Positions 1,768 through 52,343 of a DNA stretch of 64,000 bases are shown piece by piece. Both the position numbers and the translations under genes were made by a program. The first letter of the stretch is position 1. Each line of letters opens with the position of its first letter. A model generated the notes under the pieces. The model saw only the letters and a program-made list of their open reading frames with translations. It did not search any database and was not told where the DNA came from. Source of the DNA: Nocardia sputorum (lineage in GTDB: Bacteria; Actinomycetota; Actinomycetes; Mycobacteriales; Mycobacteriaceae); assembly GCF_027924405.1 (NCBI RefSeq), contig NZ_AP026978.1, forward strand, positions 4,092,001-4,156,000. Direction: 5' to 3'.

Positions 1768-3120
1768 TCAGATCGCCAACCCCGCCCGCAGCCTCGTCGC
1801 GGCCAGCATGATCGACTCCGCTTGAATGCCCACCAGACGAGCCAGCGGCACCGCGACACCTGGTGCGTTCTGCTCCACGTCCGCGCACCATTGCTCGAAG
1901 ATCGCGGCGAACCGGTCCCGTTCGGCTGCCAGCACCGGCGCCGCGCCGCGCGCGTATTCGTCCTCCAGCAGGCGCAGCAGCATGCCGCCCAGCCGCAGAC
2001 GCAGCATCGCGGTCCAGTCGTACTGCCCGACGAAGATCTCGCCCCTGGTCGCGATCCGATCCCGTTCCGGCACAGTCTGTCTGCTCACCGCGAGACCCGG
2101 CAGCCCGGCGACCAGCGCGCGCACCGACCGCTCGAACGGGCTGCGGCCGCTCAACTCGCCCTCGACGCGGGCGAGCACCTCCGAGGCGACCTCGGCCATG
2201 GCTCGATAATCGGCGGCCGTGGCGTCGAGCAGGTCGCCCAGCACGCGGTCGCCCGCCGAACCGTCGCCGATCCGCGCGTCGACCCACAGCGGCAGTTCGC
2301 ACACCAGGATCGCCGTGCCGTAGCGCGCCGCGTAGTCCCGGCAGCCGCCCCCGCCCAGCGCGGTGACCGCGTCCAGGCCCTGGGCCGCGAGCAGATCGGC
2401 CATCGCCTCGAAGCGCGGCAGTTCGAAGACGCCGGGGGCCAGTGTCCTGGCGCCCGGCGCATCGGGTTCGCCCTGGTAGATCGGCACATCGGCGGCGGAG
2501 AGGCGGGCCGTCAGCGCGGACCAGTACCCGGGGTCGCCGCCGGAGGTATAGAAGAAACCACCGCCGAATTCCGCGTTGTGCAGCGAGGCGATCAACGCCG
2601 GCCGGGTCCGATCGATCAGCGACATCATCGCCTCGGTCTCGGGAAGCGGCACCCCGACGCGCCGGCCGTGCCACTCGGTCGGGAAGCACCATTCGGGCTG
2701 TTCGACGGCGGGCGGCCGGTAGAAGCCGCGCGCGACGCGGGTCCTGGTGTGCGGCCCGGGAAACCAGCCCTCGTTCAACCGCGTTCCGTCCGGGTCGACG
2801 CACAGCAGGAAATGCCACGTGGCGCCCACGGTCACCGATTCGTCGGCGGCCATCCGGCCCAGCAGGTGGCGAATGGTGGCCATGCCGATGGGCTCGTTCG
2901 GGTGCGGATTGCCGAAGACCAGGATGTGGCGGTCGCCCGATCCGACGGTCACCTCGCGGATCGGACCGCCGCCACGAGACCGGCCGAGTTCGGTGATCGA
3001 GACCCGGTCGGGATGACCCGCGGCGAGCGCGTCAGCGAACGCGTCGAGTTCGTCGACGGTCGGAAACGCGTCGATCCGGCCGATCGGCCCGACCAATCCG
3101 GTGATGTCGCCTGCCTGCAC
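1768..3120 (-). CDS. M14-family zinc carboxypeptidase-like protein
   Basis: Predicted metallopeptidase of about 450 residues. Zinc ligands are recognisable as HPNE (His73, Glu76) and a second His in SLHNAEFGG (His181). The likely catalytic Glu is in CELPLWVD (about 275). No signal peptide is seen, so it is probably cytoplasmic. I chose the GTG at 3120, which has AAGGGGGG six bases upstream; an in-frame start at 3162 would add 14 residues without a better ribosome site. It lies between the glycine riboswitch/gcvP and the MerR gene. From memory, M. tuberculosis has an unrelated small gene (Rv1831) here, so this may be a lineage-specific insertion. The substrate is unknown. Confidence 0.82.
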   Translation of the reverse strand: MQAGDITGLVGPIGRIDAFPTVDELDAFADALAAGHPDRVSITELGRSRGGGPIREVTVGSGDRHILVFGNPHPNEPIGMATIRHLLGRMAADESVTVGATWHFLLCVDPDGTRLNEGWFPGPHTRTRVARGFYRPPAVEQPEWCFPTEWHGRRVGVPLPETEAMMSLIDRTRPALIASLHNAEFGGGFFYTSGGDPGYWSALTARLSAADVPIYQGEPDAPGARTLAPGVFELPRFEAMADLLAAQGLDAVTALGGGGCRDYAARYGTAILVCELPLWVDARIGDGSAGDRVLGDLLDATAADYRAMAEVASEVLARVEGELSGRSPFERSVRALVAGLPGLAVSRQTVPERDRIATRGEIFVGQYDWTAMLRLRLGGMLLRLLEDEYARGAAPVLAAERDRFAAIFEQWCADVEQNAPGVAVPLARLVGIQAESIMLAATRLRAGLAI

Positions 3121-3256
3121 GGCGCCCCCCTTCTCGCTGCCCGCCCCTCGTCCCGCCGCCAACGGCGCTGTCGCACACCACGGCCGGGGCGGCTGCCCGC
3201 CTCACCCGGCCGTGGAAGCGTTCGTTCCCGGTGTTTCCCGCTGGACTGGGCGAATT

Positions 3257-3814
3257 CTAGCCCGTCTTGCGGTTCATCCGCGCCTTCCGACGGAACGACA
3301 GCTCGTCCTCCGGGCGTTCGGTGATCGCCGACGCGCGCTCCGCGGGGAAATTGGCGATGGCGCCCGTCAGTTCGCGCATGGCGCCGCTGACCGCGATTCC
3401 GAAGACTCCCTGCCCGCCCTGCAGTAAATCGACGACCTCCTCGGCCGAGGTGCACTCGTAGACCGAGGTGCCGTCGGAGAACAGGGTGATGCCCGCGAGA
3501 TCCTGGACGCCGCGGCTGCGCAGATGATCGACCGCGATCCGGATGTTCTGCAGCGAGATGCCCGCGTCGAGCAACCGCTTGACGATCTTCAGGACCAGGA
3601 TGTCCTTGAACGAGTACAGCCGCTGACTCCCCGAACCCGCGGCGCTCCGGATGGAGGGCACCACCAGACCGGTGCGCGCCCAGTAATCGAGCTGCCGGTA
3701 GGTGATTCCGGCCACCTGGCACGCACTGGGAACGCGATAGCCGACCAGATCGTCAGGTACCGAATCGTCGGGGAACAGGCCTGGCTGTACCACATCCTGC
3801 GATTGCTCTGCCAC
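3257..3814 (-). CDS. MerR-family regulator, Rv1830 (ResR)-like
   Basis: DNA-binding regulator of 185 residues with an N-terminal MerR winged helix (YRVPSACQVAGITYRQLDYW, about 26-45) followed by a helical dimerisation region and a charged C-terminus. It sits next to the DUF151 nuclease gene and one gene away from the second MerR gene, as Rv1830 does in M. tuberculosis. That homologue has been named resR and linked to growth and cell-division control after stress; the transfer of function here is inferred. The start is the GTG at 3814, with AAGGGAG eight bases upstream. No cysteine sensor motif of metal-binding MerR proteins is seen. Confidence 0.9.
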   Translation of the reverse strand: MAEQSQDVVQPGLFPDDSVPDDLVGYRVPSACQVAGITYRQLDYWARTGLVVPSIRSAAGSGSQRLYSFKDILVLKIVKRLLDAGISLQNIRIAVDHLRSRGVQDLAGITLFSDGTSVYECTSAEEVVDLLQGGQGVFGIAVSGAMRELTGAIANFPAERASAITERPEDELSFRRKARMNRKTG

Positions 3815-4001
3815 TGACCACTCCCTTGCTTCGCCGACGCATTCCCAGCCTCATCGATGACCCGGCTCCGTCACCGACCGAATCGGTGCGGATTCGGCCG
3901 AAACGGTCGTGGCCCAACTGTCGAGATTACTCCCCACGATTGTCCAGGGAGCGGCGTCATCGAGCCAAACGCGACGCGCGGGGAAAGTCTCGACCTCTAC
4001 T

Positions 4002-4475
4002 TCAGCTATCGGTCGCCTTGAAGTCGTCGGGGGACACCGACTCGAGAAACTCCTTGAACTTCTCCACCTCGTCCTCGCGCTCATCCGGCATCACGAGGCC
4101 GGCTTCCTCGAGCACCGACTCCTCGGCATGGATCGGGCAACCCACCCGCAAGGCAATCGCAACCGAATCCGACGGCCGCGCCGAAATCCGCAGATCGTTC
4201 TCGAAGACGAGATCGGCGTAGAAGGTGCCCTCCTGCAGATCCACGATCCGCACCTCCTTGAGGGTGTGCCCCAGCTCGGTGATCAGGATCTTGATCAAGT
4301 CGTGCGTCAGCGGGCGGATCGGGGTCACCCCCTCCTGTTCCAGCACGATCGCCGTCGCCTCGGCCTGCCCGATCCAGATCGGCAGATACCGGTCACCCGC
4401 CACTTCCCGGAGCAACAGCACGGGCTGGTTCTGTGGCTGCTCGACACGGATGCCGATCACGCGCATTTCGCTCAT
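4002..4475 (-). CDS. Bifunctional nuclease-family (DUF151) protein, Rv1829-like
   Basis: Small conserved protein (157 residues) of the BFN/DUF151 family, to which combined RNase/DNase activity has been attributed in plants. The signature stretches are RVEQPQNQPVLLLRE, YLPIWIGQ.EA, DLQEGTFYADL and ARPSDSVAIALR, with a C-terminal KEFL.SVSPDDF tail typical of actinobacterial members. I moved the start to the ATG at 4475, which has GGGAGG just upstream and matches the usual family N-terminus; a further upstream in-frame start would add 27 unsupported residues. It is flanked by the two MerR genes exactly as in mycobacteria. Its biochemical role in this lineage is unproven. Confidence 0.92.
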   Translation of the reverse strand: MSEMRVIGIRVEQPQNQPVLLLREVAGDRYLPIWIGQAEATAIVLEQEGVTPIRPLTHDLIKILITELGHTLKEVRIVDLQEGTFYADLVFENDLRISARPSDSVAIALRVGCPIHAEESVLEEAGLVMPDEREDEVEKFKEFLESVSPDDFKATDS

Positions 4476-35910: not shown

Positions 35911-36028
35911 TTCCGGCGGTGTCCTACTCTCCCACACCCTGTCGAGTGCAGTACCATCGGCGCTGGCAGGCTTAGCTTCCGGGTTCGGAATGGGACCGGG
36001 CGTTTCCCCACCGCTATGGCCGCCGTAA
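35911..36028 (-). rRNA. rrf: 5S ribosomal RNA
   Basis: The minus strand begins TTACGGCGGCCATAGCGG and contains CCCGGTCCCATTCCGAACC and GGAAGCTAAGCC, and ends near GGTGTCCTAC read on the plus strand. The length is about 118 nt. It is the last gene of the rRNA operon. Ends are approximate by a few bases. Confidence 0.96.
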
Positions 36029-36156
36029 CTCTATGAAACTATCCACACCACCAACTCCCGACCACACCACCCCGAACACGGGATCATGCCGTCGATCATC
36101 AGCAGTCTCTGTGTGTTGTTTCAGATACCGCACAGTGGACGCGTAGCAACCTTTGT
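36029..36156 (-). other. 23S-5S spacer with the 3' arm of the pre-23S processing stem
   Basis: The spacer carries two segments complementary to the 16S-23S spacer: 36111-36121 (GTGTGTTGTTT) pairs with 39301-39311, and 36131-36143 (CACAGTGGACGCG) pairs with 39280-39292. Together they form the long stem expected to be cut by RNase III during 23S maturation. No tRNA gene is present. Confidence 0.85.
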
Positions 36157-41112
<4,956 letters not shown>

Positions 41113-42623: not shown

Positions 42624-42685
42624 GGTCCCAGTATGGCCGCGAAGGAGGACAGATCCCGACCTCATCGGCCCCTAGCGTGACGGTC

Positions 42686-44977
42686 GTGCAAGCTCATCGA
42701 GACTCCATCACGATCGTCGGCGCGCGCGAGAACAACCTCCGCGACGTGTCACTGACGATCCCCAAAGGCAAGATCGTGGTCTTCACCGGCGTCTCCGGAT
42801 CGGGTAAGTCGTCGCTCGTCTTCGGCACCGTCGCGGTGGAGTCGCAGCGGCAGCTCAATGAGACCTTCACCTGGTTCATCCGCAACCGGCTGCCCAAATA
42901 CGAGCGGCCGGAGGCCGATGCGATCGACAATCTGGCGCCCGCCGTGGTCGTCGACCAGAAGCCCATCGGCGGCAACTCCCGGTCGACGGTGGGAACCATG
43001 ACCGATATCCAGTCGATCATCCGGGTGCTGTTCTCCCGGCACAGCGTGCCGAGCGCGGGTGAGGCGACTCGCTACTCGTTCAACGATCCGCTGGGCATGT
43101 GCCCCGCGTGCGGCGGCCTGGGCCAGGTGGTGCGCCCGGATCTGGACAAACTCCTCGATACCGGCAAGTCGCTCAACGAGGGCGCGATCACCTTCGGGCC
43201 CTTCGCGGTCGGAACATTCCAGTGGCAGCTCTACGCCGAGTCGGGGCTATTCGATCCCGACAAGCCACTGCGGGACTTCGATCCGGAAGAGTGGCAGTTG
43301 TTCCTGCACGGCAAGGGATTCCGGGTGCCGCGCAAGAACCGGAACGGCTCGGCGGGGAACAACGCCTACGAAGGTCTGCTGGAGCGGTTCGATCGCCTGT
43401 ATATCAAGCGCGACCTCGCCGCGTTGTCGGACAAGAATCGGGCAGCCGCCCGCGCGGTGGTCACCGAGGAGGTCTGCCCGGACTGCGGGGGCGCCCGGCT
43501 CAACGCCGCCGCGCTGGCGAGCCGGATCGATGGACTCGGCATCGCCGACTACGGCAGGCTGGAGGTCACCGACCTCATCGAGGTGCTCGCCGGCCTGGAT
43601 GATCCGGTGGCTCGACCGATCGCACAGGCGGCCATCGCCCGGCTGCGCCGGATCGAGGAGGTGGGGCTCGGCTATCTGTCGCTCGATCGGGAGACCGCGA
43701 CCCTGTCCGGCGGCGAGGCGCAGCGGCTGAAAGTCGTCCGGCATCTGGGCTCCAGCCTCACCGGCATGACCTACATCTTCGACGAGCCGAGCGTCGGCAT
43801 GCACCCCCGCGATGTGGGACGCCTCAACACACTGTTGCGGCGGCTCCGGGACAAGGGGAACACCGTGCTGGTGGTGGAGCACTCCCCCGATGTGATCGCC
43901 GTCGCCGACCACGTGGTCGACATGGGGCCTGGCGCTGGTTCGCACGGCGGACAGGTCGTGTTCCAAGGCACGGTCGATCAGCTGCGGGTCGCACGGACAC
44001 CCACCGGTGCGGGATTGCGCCGCGTGCGGCGGGTGAAGGAAGACGTCCGTGAGCCGACCGGTTGGCTCACCGTCACCGATGCCGACGCCTACAACCTCAA
44101 GAGTCTGACCGCACGGTTCCCGACCGGCGTGCTCACGGCGGTGACCGGCGTGGCCGGGTCCGGCAAGAGCACGCTGGTCTCGGGCGCGTTCGTCACCGCG
44201 CACCCACAGGTCATCGCGGTGAACCAGTCCGCGATCGCCGCCTCGCGACGTTCCAGCCCCGCCACCTATCTCGGCATCATGGACCCGCTGCGTCAGCTCT
44301 TCGCCAAGCGACACGGCGTCCGGCCGGGCTTGTTCAGTTTCAACTCGGACGGCGCCTGCGGGGAATGCGACGGCGCGGGAGCGATCTTCACCGACTTGGC
44401 ATACATGGACCCGGTCACCACGGTCTGTCAGGCCTGTCACGGGCGCAGGTACCGGCCGGAAGCGCTCGCCTACGAGATCCGCGGAGCGTCGATCGCCGAC
44501 GTCCTGGAGATGTCCGCCGAGGACGCGCTGGATTTCTGGGCGGAAGACGGGGACCGGCGCATTCGCACACCGTTGCGGGCGCTGCTCGACGTCGGTCTCG
44601 GCTACCTCACCCTCGGTCGCGCGCTCTCCTCGCTGTCCGGCGGCGAACGCCAGCGCGTCAAGCTGGCCGATCATCTCCAGCGGCGCGACGGCGCCGGGGT
44701 ATACGTGCTGGACGAGCCGACCACCGGGCTGCACATGGCCGACGTCGACACGCTGGTGGGGCTGCTGGATCGGCTGGTCGACGCGGGCAACACGGTGATC
44801 GTCATCGAGCACGACCTGGACGTCGTCGCGCGCGCGGATTGGGTGATCGATCTCGGCCCCGACGGTGGAAAGCACGGCGGCGAGATAGTTTTCGCCGGGA
44901 CCCCGGCGGCCTTGCTGGCAGATCACCGGTCGCTGACCGCGGAGTACCTGCGGCGCAGTGTCGCCGCCCGAGTATGA
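42686..44977 (+). CDS. UvrA-like ABC ATPase (DrrC/UvrA2 class), drug-resistance type
   Basis: UvrA paralogue of about 763 residues, much shorter than the roughly 950-residue UvrA. It has two ATPase units: Walker A motifs GVSGSGKSS (near residue 36) and GVAGSGKST (near 490), signatures LSGGEAQRLK and LSGGERQRVK, and zinc-finger pairs CPACGG, CPDCGG, CGECDGAG and CQACHG. The size and layout match DrrC of the daunorubicin producer, which is thought to remove intercalated drug from DNA; the UvrB-interaction region appears reduced. A TAGCGT -10-like hexamer at 42673 favours a leaderless start at the GTG at 42686; the GTG at 42677 is the alternative. Confidence 0.9.
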   Translation: MQAHRDSITIVGARENNLRDVSLTIPKGKIVVFTGVSGSGKSSLVFGTVAVESQRQLNETFTWFIRNRLPKYERPEADAIDNLAPAVVVDQKPIGGNSRSTVGTMTDIQSIIRVLFSRHSVPSAGEATRYSFNDPLGMCPACGGLGQVVRPDLDKLLDTGKSLNEGAITFGPFAVGTFQWQLYAESGLFDPDKPLRDFDPEEWQLFLHGKGFRVPRKNRNGSAGNNAYEGLLERFDRLYIKRDLAALSDKNRAAARAVVTEEVCPDCGGARLNAAALASRIDGLGIADYGRLEVTDLIEVLAGLDDPVARPIAQAAIARLRRIEEVGLGYLSLDRETATLSGGEAQRLKVVRHLGSSLTGMTYIFDEPSVGMHPRDVGRLNTLLRRLRDKGNTVLVVEHSPDVIAVADHVVDMGPGAGSHGGQVVFQGTVDQLRVARTPTGAGLRRVRRVKEDVREPTGWLTVTDADAYNLKSLTARFPTGVLTAVTGVAGSGKSTLVSGAFVTAHPQVIAVNQSAIAASRRSSPATYLGIMDPLRQLFAKRHGVRPGLFSFNSDGACGECDGAGAIFTDLAYMDPVTTVCQACHGRRYRPEALAYEIRGASIADVLEMSAEDALDFWAEDGDRRIRTPLRALLDVGLGYLTLGRALSSLSGGERQRVKLADHLQRRDGAGVYVLDEPTTGLHMADVDTLVGLLDRLVDAGNTVIVIEHDLDVVARADWVIDLGPDGGKHGGEIVFAGTPAALLADHRSLTAEYLRRSVAARV

Positions 44978-45087: not shown

Positions 45088-45966
45088 ATGACGACACGGG
45101 AGGTGGTTCGGGCGGGAGCTTTCGCACGGATCTACGACCCGAGCGCCGGTGAAACGGAACAGTGGTACATCAACGACCACACGATTCTTCGCGACGACGC
45201 CGGACGGTGGCATCTTTTCGGAATCACCCATCCGGAACCCGCGGACCCGTTCGACGAGACCGAGTTCGCCCACGCCGTCGCGGACCGGCTGCACGGGCCG
45301 TGGACCAAGCACGATTGCGCCCTGCGAGTGGACCGGGACTACGGCGAAACGCATCTGTGGGCGCCTTACGTGGTCGGCGCCCGTGGGCAGTACTACATGT
45401 TCTACGCGGCGGGCGGCGCCGACCGCACCGGCGCGGCGATGAACCTGGCGACCTCGCCGGACCTGTTCCGCTGGACCAGATCGCCGGCGGGCCCCCTGTT
45501 CCACGACGGCTACGACGCGCGCGACCCCATGGTGGTGCGCGTGGGCGACCAGTGGGTGCTGTACTACTGCGCGACCAGCGCCCCGGCGGGGGGTCATCAC
45601 GTCGTCGCCTACCGCACCAGCACCGACCTCGTACACTGGGGCGAGCGGCACATCGCCTACACGGACCCGGCCAAAGGCACCGAAGCGGGCAATACCGAAT
45701 CTCCTTACGTCGTCCGGCATGACGGATGGTGGTACCTGTTCATCGGCCCTCGCCCGGGTTATGTCGGCACCGATGTCTTTCGCAGCGACAGCCCTTTTCG
45801 CTTCCGCATCGGAGACAAGGTCGGCCACATCGCCGCGCACGCCGCCGAAGTGATCCACGACGACGGCCGGTGGTGGATCACCAGCGCGGGCTGGGGTCAG
45901 GGCGGGGTCCATCTGGCGCCGCTGCGCTTTCCGCAGTCGCGCGTCGTCAAAACGGTTCCGCGCTAG
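45088..45966 (+). CDS. GH43-like five-bladed propeller glycosidase
   Basis: Cytosolic protein of 292 residues with the repeated W/Y-rich blades of the GH43/GH32 five-bladed propeller (GRWHLFGITH, GQYYMFYAAGG, DQWVLYYCATS, GWWYLFIGP, GRWWITSAG). The expected acidic triad can be placed at WYINDHTI, ARDPMVV and GNTESPYV, in the right order for a furanosidase-type enzyme. No signal peptide is present. It is the first gene of a probable pentoside locus. Whether it hydrolyses arabinofuranosides, fructosides or another sugar cannot be read from the sequence. Confidence 0.78.
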   Translation: MTTREVVRAGAFARIYDPSAGETEQWYINDHTILRDDAGRWHLFGITHPEPADPFDETEFAHAVADRLHGPWTKHDCALRVDRDYGETHLWAPYVVGARGQYYMFYAAGGADRTGAAMNLATSPDLFRWTRSPAGPLFHDGYDARDPMVVRVGDQWVLYYCATSAPAGGHHVVAYRTSTDLVHWGERHIAYTDPAKGTEAGNTESPYVVRHDGWWYLFIGPRPGYVGTDVFRSDSPFRFRIGDKVGHIAAHAAEVIHDDGRWWITSAGWGQGGVHLAPLRFPQSRVVKTVPR

Positions 45967-46075
45967 GCGGACCGGCGAGCGCGATTTCGGCGAAACGCGT
46001 CTCCGGTCCGGCCGCGGCTGGTATCTGTTGATCGAGTCGAACTCTCCGATCACCCCACCTACGGGAGGGACCGGC

Positions 46076-47488
46076 ATGGCCCGTATCGGCGTTATCAGCA
46101 TTTCCGATGGCCGCGACTATGTGCATGCGGGCATCGCCGATTTCATCGCCTCCAGCGAGGACCGGCTGGTGGCCGCGCTGGAGCAGGCGGGCCACGACGT
46201 GGTCCGCGGCGCGGCGCCGGTCAGCGACAACGCGCTGGCGAGTTCGGTGGCGCGCACGGTCGCGGCGGCGGGCGTCGATCTGACCGTCCTGCACTACGCG
46301 GTGTGGGCGTTCCCGCACTTCACCATGCTCGCTGCGGGCGCGATACCCGGGCCGCTGCTGTTGCTGTCGAATATCGACCCGGTGCAACCGGGCATGGTGG
46401 GCATGCTCGCCGCGGGTGGCGCGTTGGATCAGATCGGACGCAAGCACAGCAGACTGTGGGGTGACCCGTCCGATCCCGAGCTCATCGAGGCCATCGGCGT
46501 GCGCGCGCGAGCCGCGGCGGCCGTATCCGGCTTGCGCGGTTCGACGTTCGGGCGCTTCGGTGGGCGGCCGATGGGCATGAACACCGCGGTCGCCAATACC
46601 GATCAGTGGCAGCGGCAGTTCGGCATCGACGTCGAGGAAATCGATCAGTGGGAGATCGTGCGGCGCGCCGAGCTGGCCGACGCCGGCGAGGCGAGGGCCG
46701 CGCGGGAGTGGCTGGAGCGGCACACCGCGGGCGTGCACTACGACGGCGTGAAACTCACTCCGCAGCTGCTGGAACGCCAGATCCGCTCCTATCTAGCGGT
46801 CCGTGAACTGATCGCCGAATGGCGGCTGGATTTCTCGGGGATCAAGGGGCAGCCCGAACTCACCCAGTATTTCGCCACCATGGACGTCACCGAGGCGTTC
46901 CTCAACGATCCCTACGACTGGAACGGCCCGAAGGAACCGCACGTCTGCGCCACCGAAGCGGACATGGACGGCGCGCTGACCATGCAACTGCTCAAGCGGA
47001 TCGCGGGCACCCCGGTGCTGTTCGCCGACGTCCGGCACTACCACGCCGATCGCGACATCTGGGATCTGTGCAATTCCGGCCAGCACGCCACCTGGTTCGC
47101 CGCGCGCAGCGCCGATCCCGCGGAGAACCTCGCGAAGGTGCACCTTTATCCGGAGGTGTTCTTCTTCCCCGCGGGCGGAGCCTCGGTGCACCATCTGGCC
47201 GCGCCGGGACAGATGACCCTGGCGCGGCTCACCCGTCTGGACGGCGCCTACCGCATGCAGCTGATGCTCGGCGAGTTCGAGCACTACGACCAGCAGACCA
47301 ACGACGCGCTGATGAAGCAGTCGACCTGGGAGTGGCCGCACGCGTTCGCCCGGCTGGACGCGCGCGCCGAGGACTTCCTGAACCGCTTCGGCGCCAACCA
47401 CATCCACGCGGTGCCCGGTGACCACCGGGCCGTCCTGCGCGCGACGTGCGAGCTGCTCGACGTCACGCTGGACGAGTTCACGCGGTGA
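46076..47488 (+). CDS. L-fucose/L-arabinose isomerase-family protein
   Basis: Ketol isomerase-fold protein of 470 residues. It starts MARIGVISISDGRDYVHAGI at the ATG at 46076, which follows GGGAGGG. Probable metal ligands are the Glu and Asp in CATEADMDGALTMQLL (near 294) and His in LCNSGQHATWF (near 336). The L-fucose and D-arabinose stereochemistries match, and many FucI-type enzymes act on D-arabinose to give D-ribulose. The actual substrate here is not known. Its stop overlaps the start of a sugar kinase gene, which strongly implies sequential isomerase and kinase steps. Confidence 0.83.
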   Translation: MARIGVISISDGRDYVHAGIADFIASSEDRLVAALEQAGHDVVRGAAPVSDNALASSVARTVAAAGVDLTVLHYAVWAFPHFTMLAAGAIPGPLLLLSNIDPVQPGMVGMLAAGGALDQIGRKHSRLWGDPSDPELIEAIGVRARAAAAVSGLRGSTFGRFGGRPMGMNTAVANTDQWQRQFGIDVEEIDQWEIVRRAELADAGEARAAREWLERHTAGVHYDGVKLTPQLLERQIRSYLAVRELIAEWRLDFSGIKGQPELTQYFATMDVTEAFLNDPYDWNGPKEPHVCATEADMDGALTMQLLKRIAGTPVLFADVRHYHADRDIWDLCNSGQHATWFAARSADPAENLAKVHLYPEVFFFPAGGASVHHLAAPGQMTLARLTRLDGAYRMQLMLGEFEHYDQQTNDALMKQSTWEWPHAFARLDARAEDFLNRFGANHIHAVPGDHRAVLRATCELLDVTLDEFTR

Positions 47489-48972
47489 CGATGTTCCTCG
47501 GCATCGACATCGGGACTTCGAGTTCCAAGGGCGTGCTCACCGATGCCCGCGGCAGCATCGTCGCCAGGGCCGAGCGGGCGCACGAGGTGTCCATGCCGCA
47601 TCCCGGCTGGGTGGAGCACGACGCGGAGACGGTCTGGTGGGCCGACTTCGTCGCGCTCGCCCGCGAGTTGACGACGGCTACCGGCGGCGTCGCGCTGGAG
47701 GGTCTCGCGGTGTCCGGGATCGGCCCGTGCCTGCTGCCCGCCGATGCGCAGGGCAGGCCGTTGCGCCCGGCCATCCTCTACGGCGTCGACACCAGGGCCG
47801 GCGCCGAGATCGGTGAACTGAACGCCGAATTCGGCGCACGGGCCGTGCTCGACCGCGCCGGGTCACCACTGACCAGCCAGGCGGTCGGCCCGAAGGCCCG
47901 CTGGCTGGCCCGGCACGAGCCGGACGTCGCCGCACGCACCGCGATGCTGCTGATGGCGAGCTCTTTCCTGGTGTACCGGCTCACCGGTCGCTACGTTCTC
48001 GACCACCAATCGGCCAGTCAGTGCGTACCCCTGTACGACCTGCGCGCACGTGCGTGGGCGGCGGACTGGGCAGAGCGGATCGTGCCGGGCTGGGCATTGC
48101 CGGAGCTGGCGTGGCCCACCGAGATCGTCGGCCGGGTGAGCGCCGACGCGGCGGCCGCCACGGGGCTTCCGGCGGGGCTGCCGGTCACCACCGGGACCAT
48201 CGATGCCTGGGCCGAGGCGGCCAGCGTGGGCGTCCGCGCTCCGGGCGACGCCATGATCATGTACGGCACCACGATGTTCCTGGTGCAGGTGCTCACCGAC
48301 CCGCGCCCGCATCCCGGTCTCTGGGGCACCTGCGGCACCTGGCCGGATACGTACACACTCGCCGCGGGTATGGCCACCTCCGGCGCGGTGACCGACTGGC
48401 TGCGCAAGCTCGTGGGCGGGGAGTTCACCGACCTGGTCGCGGCGGCGGCGGACGTGCCCGCGGGCAGCCGAGGGCTGCTCGCACTGCCGTATTTCGCCGG
48501 GGAGCGCACTCCGTTGTTCGACCCGGACGCGCGCGGCGTCGTCGCGGGACTCACCCTGGGGCACGGACGGGCCGAGCTCTACCGGGCGGTTCTGGAGGGC
48601 ATCGCGTACGGGGTACGGCACAACCTGGAGGCCATGACCGAAGCCGGCGGGCGGGCGGGGCGTCTGGTGGCGGTGGGCGGCGGCACCAAAGGCGGGCTGT
48701 GGACCCGGATCGTCTCCGATGTCACCGGGCTGCCGCAGCAATTGCCCGCCGACACCGTCGGCGCGAGCCTGGGCGACGCTCTGCTCGCGGCCGAGGCGGC
48801 CGGGGTCGACACCTCGGGGTGGAATCCCGTCGTCGATACCGTGCGGCCGCACCCGGAACACGTCGCGAAATATGAGGAGTACTACCGGCACTACCGAGAT
48901 CTGTACGATCGCACGACGGATATCGCGCATTTCCTTGCGGCCGAACAGCACCGTGCCGGCGCGTCTTCCTGA
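47485..48972 (+). CDS. FGGY-family carbohydrate kinase (ketopentose kinase candidate)
   Basis: Sugar kinase of 495 residues. The ATP-binding start is GIDIGTSSSKGVLTD. The catalytic base is Asp near residue 239 in GTIDAWAEAASVG, and the C-terminal adenosine loop is VAVGGGTKGGLW. The GTG at 47485 overlaps the isomerase stop (GTGA); the ATG at 47491 is an alternative. Coupled to the isomerase, it probably phosphorylates the ketose product, for example D-ribulose or L-ribulose/fuculose. It differs clearly from the xylulokinase-like kinase at 50937, so the locus encodes two ketose kinases. Confidence 0.88.
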   Translation: MTMFLGIDIGTSSSKGVLTDARGSIVARAERAHEVSMPHPGWVEHDAETVWWADFVALARELTTATGGVALEGLAVSGIGPCLLPADAQGRPLRPAILYGVDTRAGAEIGELNAEFGARAVLDRAGSPLTSQAVGPKARWLARHEPDVAARTAMLLMASSFLVYRLTGRYVLDHQSASQCVPLYDLRARAWAADWAERIVPGWALPELAWPTEIVGRVSADAAAATGLPAGLPVTTGTIDAWAEAASVGVRAPGDAMIMYGTTMFLVQVLTDPRPHPGLWGTCGTWPDTYTLAAGMATSGAVTDWLRKLVGGEFTDLVAAAADVPAGSRGLLALPYFAGERTPLFDPDARGVVAGLTLGHGRAELYRAVLEGIAYGVRHNLEAMTEAGGRAGRLVAVGGGTKGGLWTRIVSDVTGLPQQLPADTVGASLGDALLAAEAAGVDTSGWNPVVDTVRPHPEHVAKYEEYYRHYRDLYDRTTDIAHFLAAEQHRAGASS

Positions 48973-49028
48973 TCGCGGATGCCCGTGCGACGATGCAGAG
49001 TCGGTTCGCGGAACGATACGAGGATTGC

Positions 49029-49121
49029 ATGCCCACGATCACTCTGACCCAGGACAATTTCGACTCCGTCGTCGCCTCTCATCCGATCGTGCTCGGTGAT
49101 TGGTGGGCCGGCTGGTGTGGG
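49029..49121 (+). pseudogene. Thioredoxin gene relic (N-terminal third only)
   Basis: An ATG behind GAGGAT opens MPTITLTQDNFDSVVASHPI and then VLGDWWAGWCG, unmistakably the start of a thioredoxin up to the first active-site Cys. It then reads RLAAAGG instead of PC and loses all similarity; the frame stops at 49208. Family enzymes need CGPC and about 110 residues, so it cannot be functional. The missing two thirds appear deleted, with the GH172 gene joined directly downstream. Confidence 0.82.
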
Positions 49122-49192
49122 CGACTGGCCGCGGCGGGCGGGACGGAGACCGCGCGGCGAGTCGGGCTCGCGCCGACCGCGCCCCGATACGG

Positions 49193-50215
49193 GTGGCCGG
49201 GATTGTGACCGCGCCGGGCGGTGAGCTGTGGCGGCTGGACGGCACGCGAACCCGGTCGGTCAGCGCCGAGAATCCGACGGGCGCGCCGGGCGCGGGCGCG
49301 CGGGCGACCGACGGCACCGGAGCGCATGCGGCGCGGCTGTTGGGCCCGGGCTGGAAGGTCTCGCCCTCCATCGCGCTCGCGCACGGCGAGACCGCCACAC
49401 TGGCCGACGTTTCCGGCCCCGGAGTGTTCCGGCATTTCTGGTTGACCACCGAGCGTTCCGTCCTCCGCGGGCTGACGCTGCGCATGACCTGGGACGACGC
49501 ACCAGCGCCCGCGATCGAGTCGCCACTCGGCGACTTCTTCTGCAACGGCTGGGGCGAGACGGCCCTGCTCGGTTCGGAGATGGTGGTCGTCGCGCCCGCC
49601 GGTGGCTTGAACAGCTATTGGCCCATGCCGTTTCGGCACCGTGCGCGCATCACGCTGGAGAATCGTTGCGGGCGCGAAGTTCCCGTGTACTACCAGGCGA
49701 CCTACACCGAAGAGGACGTGCCGGACGACGCGGGGTATCTGCACACACGATGGACGCATACGACCGGCGTGGGGACTCCGGCGGTTCACACGATTCTCGA
49801 CACGGTGCCAGGACCGGGCCGTTACGTCGGCACCTACCTCGCCATCCGCCCGTGCGCCCCGGGATGGTGGGGCGAAGGCGAAGTGAAGTTCTTTCTCGAC
49901 GGGGACACCGACCATCCCACGATTTGCGGCACGGGTACCGAGGACTATTTCGGCGGGGCCTGGAATTTCGACCTCGACGGGACATACCGCACGTATTCCA
50001 CGCCCTATCTCGGGCTGCACCAGGTACTGCCGCCGGAGCAGATCTATCGTCCGGAGCAGCGGTTCGGCATGTACCGCTGGCATGTGCGCGACCCCATCTG
50101 TTACGAGCGCGAGCTGCGCGTCACCGTGCAGGCTCTCGGATGGCAGGACGCGGCGACCTATCTCCCGCTGGCGGACGCGGAGGTGGCGACCACCGCCTGG
50201 TGGTATCAGGGCTGA
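49193..50215 (+). CDS. GH172 (DUF2961) glycoside hydrolase-like protein
   Basis: Protein of about 340 residues of DUF2961, now glycoside hydrolase family 172, whose known members include fructofuranosidases and exo-acting D-arabinofuranosidases that attack mycobacterial arabinan. Family stretches include GPGVFRHFWLTTE, LGDFFCNGWGE, NSYWPMPFRHRARITLENR and CGTGTEDYFGGAWNFD; the Glu in GTEDYFGG is in the conserved active-site region. No signal peptide is seen. The start is uncertain: GTG at 49193 or 49205, neither with a good ribosome site. The 3' end overlaps the convergent hypothetical gene by 10 bp. Confidence 0.85.
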   Translation: MAGIVTAPGGELWRLDGTRTRSVSAENPTGAPGAGARATDGTGAHAARLLGPGWKVSPSIALAHGETATLADVSGPGVFRHFWLTTERSVLRGLTLRMTWDDAPAPAIESPLGDFFCNGWGETALLGSEMVVVAPAGGLNSYWPMPFRHRARITLENRCGREVPVYYQATYTEEDVPDDAGYLHTRWTHTTGVGTPAVHTILDTVPGPGRYVGTYLAIRPCAPGWWGEGEVKFFLDGDTDHPTICGTGTEDYFGGAWNFDLDGTYRTYSTPYLGLHQVLPPEQIYRPEQRFGMYRWHVRDPICYERELRVTVQALGWQDAATYLPLADAEVATTAWWYQG

Positions 50216-50697
50216 TCGAGGTCGTCCGCATCCGGCGGCAAGTCCGATGCGAGCAGTTCGTCGGCGCGCGCCAGTACGGCGTCCATGCCGGCGGTGAGAT
50301 CATCCATCACGGTGAGGCCGTCCAGCAGTCCGGTGAGCTCGTCCTGCACGGCGCGCAGTTCCGCGATCGCCGGGTCGACCGGAAACCACGCGACCGCGTC
50401 GCGCCACCACGGATCCTCGGAGAGCCAAGCCCACAGCACGTCGCGCACCAGCACCGGGTCGGAGGTGTACATCTGGAAGGACTCCGTCGCCGAACCGGCC
50501 TGGTGCTCCAGCTCGTAGACGCCGTCGGGCAGCAACCGGGCCCGGATCTCGTGCAGGTCGGCGCGGCTGAGCTCGAGCACGGCGTGTCCAGGCGCGGCCG
50601 GTTCGTCGAGCAGGTCGCCGAGCGCTTCCTCGGTGAGTTCCGGAAGCTGCGTCCCGTCTCCCGTGCGGATGCGCACGTCGGTGGGGTCGATGCTCAT
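50206..50697 (-). CDS. Hypothetical acidic protein
   Basis: Protein of 163 residues, strongly acidic, with no recognised domain. The middle reads VYELEHQAGSATESFQMYTS and ends in a helical stretch (AELRAVQDELTGLLDGLTVM) and a DLPPDADDLDQ tail. The ATG at 50697 is preferred over the in-frame codon at 50715; the spacing to CAGACT suggests a leaderless transcript. It is embedded between the GH172 and xylulokinase genes on the opposite strand, and is probably unrelated to sugar use. Confidence 0.72.
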   Translation of the reverse strand: MSIDPTDVRIRTGDGTQLPELTEEALGDLLDEPAAPGHAVLELSRADLHEIRARLLPDGVYELEHQAGSATESFQMYTSDPVLVRDVLWAWLSEDPWWRDAVAWFPVDPAIAELRAVQDELTGLLDGLTVMDDLTAGMDAVLARADELLASDLPPDADDLDQP

Positions 50698-50936
50698 CGC
50701 GCCAGTCTGCCCCATGCGGCGGACGCATACGCGATATGCGCCGGTGCGGGGCGGTCCGGGTGCAAGGTGGTCGGTATGGGTGTGCTCGGAAGGATCGGAC
50801 GGTTCGCCGCATCACACGGCGGGTCCGTCTTCGGCAAGCGGCAGGCTTCGTGCGAGGCCGCCTTCATCGGCCCGCGTCCACCGCGCCATGGCTGCCGTGG
50901 CGGCGATATCGGCCGGATCCGCCGGGGGTGGGCGGG

Positions 50937-52343
50937 ATGACGACGGTCGCGGGAATCGACAGCTCCACCCAGTCGTGCAAGGTGGTGGTCTGCGACGCCG
51001 ACAGCGGTGCGGTTCTCGGACGCGCGCAGGCCCCGCACCCGGAGGGGACCGAGGTGGACCCGGCCGCCTGGTGGGACGCGCTGCGGATGGCCGGTGCGGG
51101 ATGGCTCGACGACGTCGACGCGATCGCCGTCGCGGGGCAGCAGCACGGCTTGGTCGCGTTGGACGCCGCGGGTGTGCCGGTGCGAAAGGCTCTGTTGTGG
51201 AACGATATTCGCTCCGCAGGCGCGGCGGAGGATCTGATCGATGAATTCGGCGGGCGGCAAGCCTGCGCCGATGCGGTGGGCAGCGTGCCGGTAGCGGCCT
51301 TCACCGTCACCAAACTGCGCTGGCTGGCCGACCACGAGCCGGAACTCGCCGACCGCACCGCGCACGTCGTGTTGCCGCACGACTATCTGACCTGGCGGCT
51401 ATGCGGCGGTGGACCGGGACGCATGCTCGAGCCGACCACCGACCGGGGCGACGCCTCCGGCACCGGCTATTGGTCGCCCGCCGACGGCGGCTATCGCGAA
51501 GACTTGCTCGCCCTGGCCTTTCGTGGACGTCGCCCCGCCCTGCCCCAGGTACTCGGACCGGCCCAGCCCGCCGGGCGCACCCCGTCGGGCGCACTGGTCG
51601 CCGCCGGAACCGGGGACAATGCCGGGGCCGCGCTGGGCTTGGGCATCACGGAGGGCGACGTGGTGGTCTCGCTCGGCACCAGCGGGACGGTCTTCGCTCG
51701 TGCCGACCGGCCCGCCGCCGACGCGACCGGCGCGGTCGCCGGGTTCGCGGACGCCACCGGCGCGTTCCTGCCGCTGGTCTGCACGCTGAACGCCGCCCGC
51801 GTCCTGACCTCGGCCGCCGATCTGCTCGGCGTGGATCTGCCGACGCTCGAATCGCTGGCCGCGCAGGAGCCTCCGGGCGCGGACGGCGTGGTCCTGCTGC
51901 CCTATCTCGCCGGTGAACGCACGCCCAACCTGCCGCACGCCGCGGGCAGCTTGCACGGATTGCGGCCGGGGGCGATGCGCCCGGGCACGGTGGCGCGCGC
52001 CGCCTTCGAGGGTCTGCTGTGCCATCTCGCCGACGCGCTCGACCACCTCACCGCGAGTGGGGTGACACCGCGGCGCGTGCTGCTCATCGGCGGCGCCGCG
52101 CGCTCACTGTTGGTCGCGGAGACCGCCGCGCAGGTGTTCGGCGTCACGGTGACGATCCCGGAACCCGACGAGCACGTCGCGCTCGGCGCTGCCCGCCAAG
52201 CGGCCTGGGCTCTGGCGGGCGCGCCCCGGCCACCCTCCTGGCCGGGGCGCTCAGTGGCGGAGATTCCGGCCCCGGCCGATGCCGCGCTCGGGCGAGAGAT
52301 CCGTGACCGATACCGGAGCACGCGCCAGGCACTGTATGGCTGA
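50937..52343 (+). CDS. xylB: Xylulokinase-like FGGY kinase
   Basis: FGGY kinase of 468 residues that best fits xylulokinase: AGIDSSTQSCKVVVCDADSG at the N-terminus, VAGQQHGLVALD, KALLWNDIR, PHDYLTWRL, catalytic Asp near 227 in GTGDNAGAALGLG, and GTSGTVFA. It would make D-xylulose 5-phosphate for the pentose phosphate pathway. The start is the ATG at 50937 after GGGTGGGCGGG. It closes the sugar locus on the plus strand. No xylose isomerase or sugar transporter is adjacent. Confidence 0.87.
   Translation: MTTVAGIDSSTQSCKVVVCDADSGAVLGRAQAPHPEGTEVDPAAWWDALRMAGAGWLDDVDAIAVAGQQHGLVALDAAGVPVRKALLWNDIRSAGAAEDLIDEFGGRQACADAVGSVPVAAFTVTKLRWLADHEPELADRTAHVVLPHDYLTWRLCGGGPGRMLEPTTDRGDASGTGYWSPADGGYREDLLALAFRGRRPALPQVLGPAQPAGRTPSGALVAAGTGDNAGAALGLGITEGDVVVSLGTSGTVFARADRPAADATGAVAGFADATGAFLPLVCTLNAARVLTSAADLLGVDLPTLESLAAQEPPGADGVVLLPYLAGERTPNLPHAAGSLHGLRPGAMRPGTVARAAFEGLLCHLADALDHLTASGVTPRRVLLIGGAARSLLVAETAAQVFGVTVTIPEPDEHVALGAARQAAWALAGAPRPPSWPGRSVAEIPAPADAALGREIRDRYRSTRQALYG

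Follow-up and report, generated by a model that had tools for sequence, protein, structure and literature searches.

A candidate cytoplasmic salvage locus for D-arabinan oligosaccharides in Nocardia sputorum

The window considered here is a stretch of 64,000 nucleotides from the 7.43 Mb single-contig chromosome of Nocardia sputorum. Between positions 45088 and 52343 it carries genes for two putative furanosidases, an aldose-ketose isomerase and two sugar kinases, which the initial annotation had described as five plus-strand genes of one intracellular route for the salvage of pentosides, possibly of D-arabinan. All five are open reading frames at their proposed positions, and the Pfam and NCBIfam models agree with the families assigned to them. 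The locus contains the following features:

45088..45966, plus strand: GH32/GH43-type propeller hydrolase, 292 amino acids (aa), no leader seen
46076..47488, plus strand: FucI-type aldose-ketose isomerase, 470 aa, three Pfam Fucose_iso domains
47485 (GTG) or 47491 (ATG)..48972, plus strand: FGGY sugar kinase with FGGY_N and FGGY_C domains
49029..49208, plus strand: thioredoxin gene remnant, an internally shortened 59-aa frame just before the GH172 gene
49205..50215, plus strand: GH172 (DUF2961) enzyme, 336 aa, PF11175
50206..50697, minus strand: protein without family match, 163 aa, between the GH172 and xylulokinase genes
50937..52343, plus strand: xylulokinase (TIGR01312)

The GTG start of the FGGY kinase at 47485 overlaps the isomerase stop codon, in keeping with the translational coupling suggested for this pair. 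The five genes do not form one uninterrupted run, because the minus-strand gene at 50206-50697 intervenes. Signal peptides were assessed by the highest 15-residue Kyte-Doolittle mean over the first ~60 residues, a rough measure that depends on script-chosen starts. None of the five N-termini holds a strongly hydrophobic stretch by this measure (maxima of 0.42-1.45, compared with 2.24 for the long GH172 of locus L034 and 2.23 for a binding protein of locus L066; the long GH172 of L066 reaches only 0.57 with its script-chosen start). No transporter or regulator was seen between 45088 and 52343. Both observations agree with the initial annotation.

The GH172 enzyme offers the clearest indication of substrate. 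It matches PF11175 with 277.9 bits (cut-off 27), and its best match in the PDB is the exo-alpha-D-arabinofuranosidase 8ic8 (379.6 bits, versus 112.6 for the fructofuranosidase alphaFFase1). Two glutamates, E224 (WWGEGE) and E246 (GTGTED), lie in motifs common to 8ic8 and would be the catalytic pair if the roles given to Glu270 and Glu291 of alphaFFase1 in the available excerpts of PMC8605356 are transferred to them. N254 aligns with Asn253 of ExoMA1, a residue credited in the excerpts of PMC10509167 with the preference for D-arabinofuranose (D-Araf) over D-fructofuranose (D-Fruf), and asparagine occupies this position in all 54 short-type GH172s that have the motif. The enzyme is 78% identical to a GH172 from N. 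brasiliensis. The genome G048 carries one GH172 (E <=1e-10), which is likewise 78% identical to that of the window and 98% identical to the GH172 named N. brasiliensis. According to the excerpts of PMC10115798, NocGH172 (O3I_017420) of N. brasiliensis is active on p-nitrophenyl-alpha-D-Araf and on arabinogalactan, and lipoarabinomannan (LAM) was digested by all GH172s tested. We infer that the N. brasiliensis relative in our comparison is this tested protein. From these likenesses in sequence, it is proposed that the GH172 of the window, the only one in its genome, is an exo-alpha-D-arabinofuranosidase.

The three Fucose_iso domains of the isomerase (N1, N2 and C) score 69.5, 64.2 and 147.1 bits, all above the Pfam cut-off. 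E294, D318 and H442 are invariant in 35 sequences and align to the metal-binding Glu, Asp and His of the Bacillus pallidus D-arabinose isomerase (3a9r). An AlphaFold2 model (pLDDT 83.2) finds its closest folds among L-fucose and D-arabinose isomerases, with a TM score of 0.83-0.86 by query length, and fits L-arabinose isomerases less well. The protein thus resembles E. coli FucI (1fui) and 3a9r in fold and metal ligands; it differs from them in its length (470 versus about 590 aa), and the identity in the Foldseek alignment is 21-22%. Closer relatives are found in Nocardia sp. CY41 (98% identical) and N. arthritidis (97%). The NCBIfam L-fucose isomerase equivalogs score far below their cut-offs (91.4 and 77.5 bits versus 775 and 850). 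In the context of its neighbours, the isomerase is proposed to convert D-arabinose to D-ribulose.

The neighbourhood was compared in the best 80 of 333 isomerase loci, ranked by similarity of the isomerase, of which 40 carry a Nocardia title and 40 do not. The propeller gene is present in all 40 Nocardia loci, the FGGY kinase and the xylulokinase in 39 each and GH172 in 38. With at least 60% identity as the criterion for the same kinase, it was found in 39 of the 40 Nocardia loci and in 37 of the 40 others. GH172 and the xylulokinase are missing from L018, and GH172 from L036; in both cases the fetched stretch ends nearby. The kinase is absent from L014 and matched only in part in L024. Gene order varies, as GH172 and the xylulokinase are inverted relative to the remaining genes in several Nocardia loci.

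The best NCBIfam match of the FGGY kinase at 47485 is the xylulokinase model TIGR01312 with 306.8 bits, below the cut-off of 380.25; the fuculokinase model gives 100.6 bits. A kinase that is xylulokinase-like rather than fuculokinase-like fits phosphorylation at C5, and the enzyme is therefore proposed to be a D-ribulose 5-kinase. This bears on another reading of the locus, in which L-fucose or another aldose is degraded, the isomerase forming L-fuculose and the kinase L-fuculose 1-phosphate. FucI-type enzymes accept L-fucose as well as D-arabinose, which weighs against an assignment to D-arabinose, and the domains are those of the FucI family. Nevertheless, we consider this reading very improbable in view of the low equivalog and fuculokinase scores. 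In addition, both hydrolases come from furanosidase-type families, and no aldolase was noticed among those conserved neighbours that were annotated.

The second kinase, at 50937, scores 397.6 bits with TIGR01312 and so exceeds the same cut-off. The initial annotation had placed all five genes on one route. The core set of hydrolases, isomerase and kinase is well supported, whereas there is no support for placing the xylulokinase in one linear sequence with it, because an opposite-strand gene intervenes and a zinc dehydrogenase is present in 22 of the 40 Nocardia loci. This dehydrogenase adjoins the xylulokinase wherever the order was read (e.g., L014, L023 and L028). It is absent from the window, where a search for a remnant before the xylulokinase gave a best match of E 0.10. 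GH172, dehydrogenase and xylulokinase also occur together in some genomes that lack the isomerase (L099 and L111). The xylulokinase probably serves a neighbouring branch, together with the dehydrogenase in relatives; a pentitol branch, for example from D-arabinitol to D-xylulose, is our guess.

The propeller protein is more difficult to place. Pfam detects GH43 (49.5 bits, cut-off 32.2) and the N-terminal GH32 domain (GH32N; 40.1 bits, cut-off 22.1), each over part of the profile. The fold lists contain GH32, GH43, GH117, GH130 and GH159 chains with a GH32 levanase as the top match, and the Z scores of the GH32, GH43, GH159 and GH117 chains differ by no more than about 3 units. The protein therefore falls among GH32, GH43 and their relatives with no clear winner by sequence or fold. 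All 56 sequences compared share D30, E87, D146 and E204, and the D, E, D, E set is kept in all 19 sequences counted outside Nocardia. The propeller fold with its Asp, Asp and Glu is present, and we infer the roles of these residues. The best profile match is BT_0996 (59 bits), with a weak match to a model named beta-L-arabinofuranosidase; we take BT_0996 to be the beta-L-arabinofuranosidase of GH137.

In its structure, D-fructofuranose is D-arabinofuranose with an extra hydroxymethyl group on the anomeric carbon. The alphaFFase1 operon of Bifidobacterium dentium resembles the locus in that an intracellular GH172 stands beside a putative GH32 enzyme, the two covering alpha- and beta-furanosides (excerpts of PMC8605356). 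By analogy with this pairing and given the likeness of the two sugars, a GH172 alpha-D-arabinofuranosidase would be expected to pair with a GH32-like beta-D-arabinofuranosidase. The same pairing, with the levanase as top fold match of the propeller, could also be taken to mean that the locus handles alpha/beta-D-fructofuranosides such as difructose anhydride or inulobiose, as in B. dentium. This is hardly credible, since fructose requires no FucI-type isomerase, N254 is of the D-Araf type and the PDB scores given above favour the D-Araf enzyme. The B. dentium operon also differs in having LacI and ABC genes, and an isomerase or pentulose kinase is not named in the excerpts.

Beta-linked ends occur on the D-arabinan of LAM, and the enzyme reported for beta-linked D-arabinan ends belongs to GH116 (both from excerpts, the latter of PMC10509167). 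No GH116 (DUF608) match was found in the genome at E 0.001. From this context and by analogy, the propeller is a candidate exo-beta-D-arabinofuranosidase. A broader proposal is that it founds a new family of such enzymes, unrelated to GH116, which acts with GH172 either as two cytoplasmic enzymes, as two secreted ones or within one bifunctional protein, and which would let Nocardia and its relatives fully dismantle beta-capped D-arabinan and return it to D-ribulose 5-phosphate. This broader proposal is tentative, and we hold it to be nearly as likely right as wrong. No paper on a GH32/GH43-type D-arabinofuranosidase was recognised in the open-licence literature. If the candidate is indeed a new enzyme type for beta-linked D-Araf, it would make a useful tool for the analysis of mycobacterial glycans.

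Alternatively, the D-arabinose part may be right while the propeller cuts another decoration, namely L-arabinofuranose, galactofuranose or a different D-Araf linkage. Enzymes for L-arabinan and xylan make up most of its GH43 matches, BT_0996 heads the profile matches and a GH159 chain is also near. Against this stand the adjacency of the propeller gene to GH172, or its fusion with it, in several lineages, its presence in all 65 Nocardia genomes with the isomerase (see below) and the lack of a GH116 match that could account for the beta caps. We regard this alternative as a serious possibility, though on balance doubtful. As a separate observation, L102 (genome G067) contains a more distant second propeller, 60% identical, beside a long GH172, and this genome also has the main hydrolase pair.

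Taken together, the genes, their families, the active-site residues, the co-inheritance, the shared neighbourhoods and one gene fusion form the basis on which the locus is read, with considerable confidence, as a cytoplasmic salvage route for D-arabinan oligosaccharides that ends in D-ribulose 5-phosphate; the substrates in the window are those suggested by this context. Short D-arabinofuranosyl chains would come from extracellular GH183-type endo-D-arabinanases, which are encoded elsewhere in the genome, or from outside sources, and would be taken up by a presumed importer. GH172 would then trim the alpha-D-arabinofuranosyl ends, and the propeller would trim ends of another type, most probably the beta-linked caps left by GH172. 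The FucI-type enzyme would convert free D-arabinose to D-ribulose, and the coupled FGGY kinase would convert this to D-ribulose 5-phosphate, which would enter the pentose phosphate pathway.

Conservation of the isomerase, GH172 and the propeller was surveyed in 148 Nocardia genomes. The isomerase was found in 65, GH172 in 86 and the propeller in 85. All three are present in 65 genomes and none in 58; a further 16 have both hydrolases without the isomerase, five have GH172 only and four the propeller only. Every genome with the isomerase thus has both hydrolases. Genomes scored as present include G039 (isomerase in fragments, split between two contigs), G071 (two overlapping frames) and G025 (one internal stop). 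Eleven of 76 matching genomes were left out as isomerase, eight with a second isomerase described below and three with short remnants (G019, G072 and G126); one of 87 (G124) was left out as GH172, as its 1023-aa frame is 36% identical and represents a distant long-type GH172. One in-frame stop was met in 16 of the 85 propeller matches. The alignments reach residues 284-292, and the stops are probably natural ones, as shorter relatives already end there. Co-occurrence gave Fisher p values of 1e-23, 2e-24 and 4e-30, in tests that treat the genomes as independent and ignore phylogeny, which weakens their force. Scattered occurrence in relatives had been named beforehand as an outcome that would speak against the route, and occurrence is indeed patchy. 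Yet joint presence or joint absence of the genes is far more frequent than expected, which argues for a real pathway.

The initial annotation had further suggested that the route recycles sugars of the organism's own wall. According to published work, D-arabinan is present in Nocardia walls, and matches to DUF4185/GH183 were found in all 148 genomes. The genome of the window itself has five such genes, four with leader-like N-termini as judged by eye. Given that GH183-type genes are universal and the salvage set is patchy, the endo-arabinanase-type gene appears to be core and the salvage set accessory. The route is dispensable, since the 58 genomes above lack all three genes, and the short matches in G019, G072 and G126 resemble isomerase remnants. 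The isomerase is found as well in Stackebrandtia, Streptomonospora and Spinactinospora, whose walls are not known to hold D-arabinan. Recycling of own-wall D-arabinan as the main role, rather than the use of foreign arabinan, is therefore unlikely, and the patchy occurrence points to arabinan pieces being used as an accessory resource more than to an obligatory recycling of the wall. The remaining part of the earlier idea, the cytoplasmic release of D-arabinose and its conversion via D-ribulose, is well supported by the GH172 specificity residues, the tested relative, the co-inheritance, the gene fusion and the locus variants elsewhere.

A second FucI-related isomerase of 549 aa (about 540-549 with its relatives) is 23-25% identical to the first and has the same metal residues. 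The Pfam model PF07881, run over the 148 genomes, recovered the 65 isomerase genomes and missed this second isomerase, which needed a separate search. It is present in eight Nocardia genomes, each of which belongs to the 16 that have both hydrolases and lack the first isomerase, and in none of the 132 others; accordingly, no genome with the first isomerase has it. In the eight Nocardia stretches fetched around it (L119-L126), neither the kinase nor GH172 nor the propeller has a relative nearby. In L155, from another family, a 69% identical relative at 2793-4412 is clustered with LacI, an ABC importer, GH172 and a propeller. Two alternative isomerases thus apparently serve the same hydrolases.

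The 40 non-Nocardia isomerase loci are built differently. Within the fetched stretches they contain LacI (38), a permease (33), a binding protein (33), an ATPase (31), the kinase (37) and a GH172 (30-31). In L066, the one locus examined in this respect, the importer matches xylose, arabinose and ribose models best, without reaching any of their cut-offs. This fits digestion outside the cell followed by uptake of free pentose. The long GH172 has a leader-like N-terminus in some loci (L034); with script-chosen starts it does not in L066 and L045. Among the 397 genomes of the order that were scanned, 21 have the propeller, and 11 of 20 propeller stretches, taken from 16 of those genomes, also hold GH172. 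In three genomes of one genus, GH172 and the propeller are fused in one frame of 1616-1650 aa (L139, 5521-10407; L140, 5597-10549; L141, 8194-13044), with leader-like N-termini and beside sugar ABC genes. As an aside, L040 is titled Rhodococcus rhodnii, and its locus and flanks resemble those of Kibdelosporangium (L034); the strain is possibly mislabelled.

Several observations weigh against the salvage route as proposed. The published activity is that of the N. brasiliensis relative only, and the N. brasiliensis locus (L109) is without this isomerase, of which there is no match in that genome. In the long GH172s of other families, the specificity position holds Tyr where the short type has Asn, in all 25 sequences with the motif, so their substrate may differ, and nine of 88 GH172 cluster members gave no motif match. 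The propeller is present in only two of the 40 non-Nocardia loci, the other nine of the 20 propeller stretches are without GH172, and the fusion, seen in one genus, is perhaps a single event. Eight of the 16 Nocardia genomes with both hydrolases and no first isomerase have neither isomerase. In seven of the 65 isomerase genomes (G012, G022, G036, G067, G068, G081 and G135) the isomerase shares 72-74% identity and is encoded on a different contig from the hydrolases; in the two of these examined, G012 and G068, it lies with LacI and ABC genes (L105 and L104), as in Pseudonocardiaceae, and is not part of this locus. Finally, no importer was found in 45088-52343, and an SBP_bac_8 importer elsewhere in the genome was not sought; with the L066 binding protein as reference, the best match in the genome reaches no more than 26.6 bits. 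Genes of the major facilitator superfamily (MFS) lie beside the propeller or thioredoxin gene in some loci (L013, L015-L017 and L097; L091-L093 and L103). No claim is made for them as importers: the MFS protein of L103 scores best with drug-efflux models, though short of the cut-off, and that of L017 has no match at 1e-10.

Similar gene sets have been described elsewhere. A locus of Microbacterium arabinogalactanolyticum (excerpts of PMC10509167) also has a GH172 exo-alpha-D-arabinofuranosidase without signal sequence, together with a putative isomerase and kinase leading toward D-ribulose 5-phosphate, which are likened to ours by description. It differs in having GH183 genes, an SBP_bac_8 ABC importer and a GH116 exo-beta-D-arabinofuranosidase, none of which is found in the window locus, and the GH32/GH43-type propeller of the window sets the latter apart. 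L109 of N. brasiliensis shares the GH172, propeller, kinases and a thioredoxin with the window and differs in its missing isomerase; the published tests there concern the GH172 itself. In Dysgonomonas gadei, the polysaccharide utilisation locus PUL42 combines GH172 with a predicted fucose isomerase, and also holds GH183; this isomerase was the most abundant carbohydrate-active protein on D-arabinan (excerpts of PMC10115798). PUL42 is a Bacteroidetes locus with its own architecture. The window locus is likely a variant of the D-arabinan utilisation type known from Microbacterium, without GH116 or a local importer, with D-arabinan as the substrate class. D-arabinan is a wall polymer common to mycobacteria, nocardiae and corynebacteria, in which endo-arabinanases are conserved. 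Among the papers listed by searches of the open-licence literature, none was found to describe a return of D-arabinose to metabolism in an organism with a D-arabinan wall. The locus provides a concrete, testable gene set in such a genus.

Among the remaining features, the thioredoxin remnant reaches 22.1 bits with the Thioredoxin model, short of the cut-off of 23.5. Over its first 31 residues it shares 90% identity with a gene of L006, and shared residues at its end can be made out by eye. An intact 155-aa thioredoxin gene occurs in L013 (69.1 bits), and a cluster count gives an intact-looking frame between the kinase and GH172 in 17 of the 40 Nocardia loci. The 163-aa protein gave no Pfam, NCBIfam or PADLOC match; relatives occur in 18-20 of these loci by two ways of counting, i.e., about half. 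Upstream, at 42677-44977, lies a gene for a short, 766-aa UvrA-like ATPase just below the cut-off of the UvrA model. It adjoins a regulator-like gene, as judged by eye, and its synteny with the salvage locus extends to close relatives. An rRNA operon (16S, 23S and 5S) is situated on the minus strand at 35911-41110, ~4 kb upstream of the locus, and a glycine riboswitch is found at 1575-1674, also on the minus strand.

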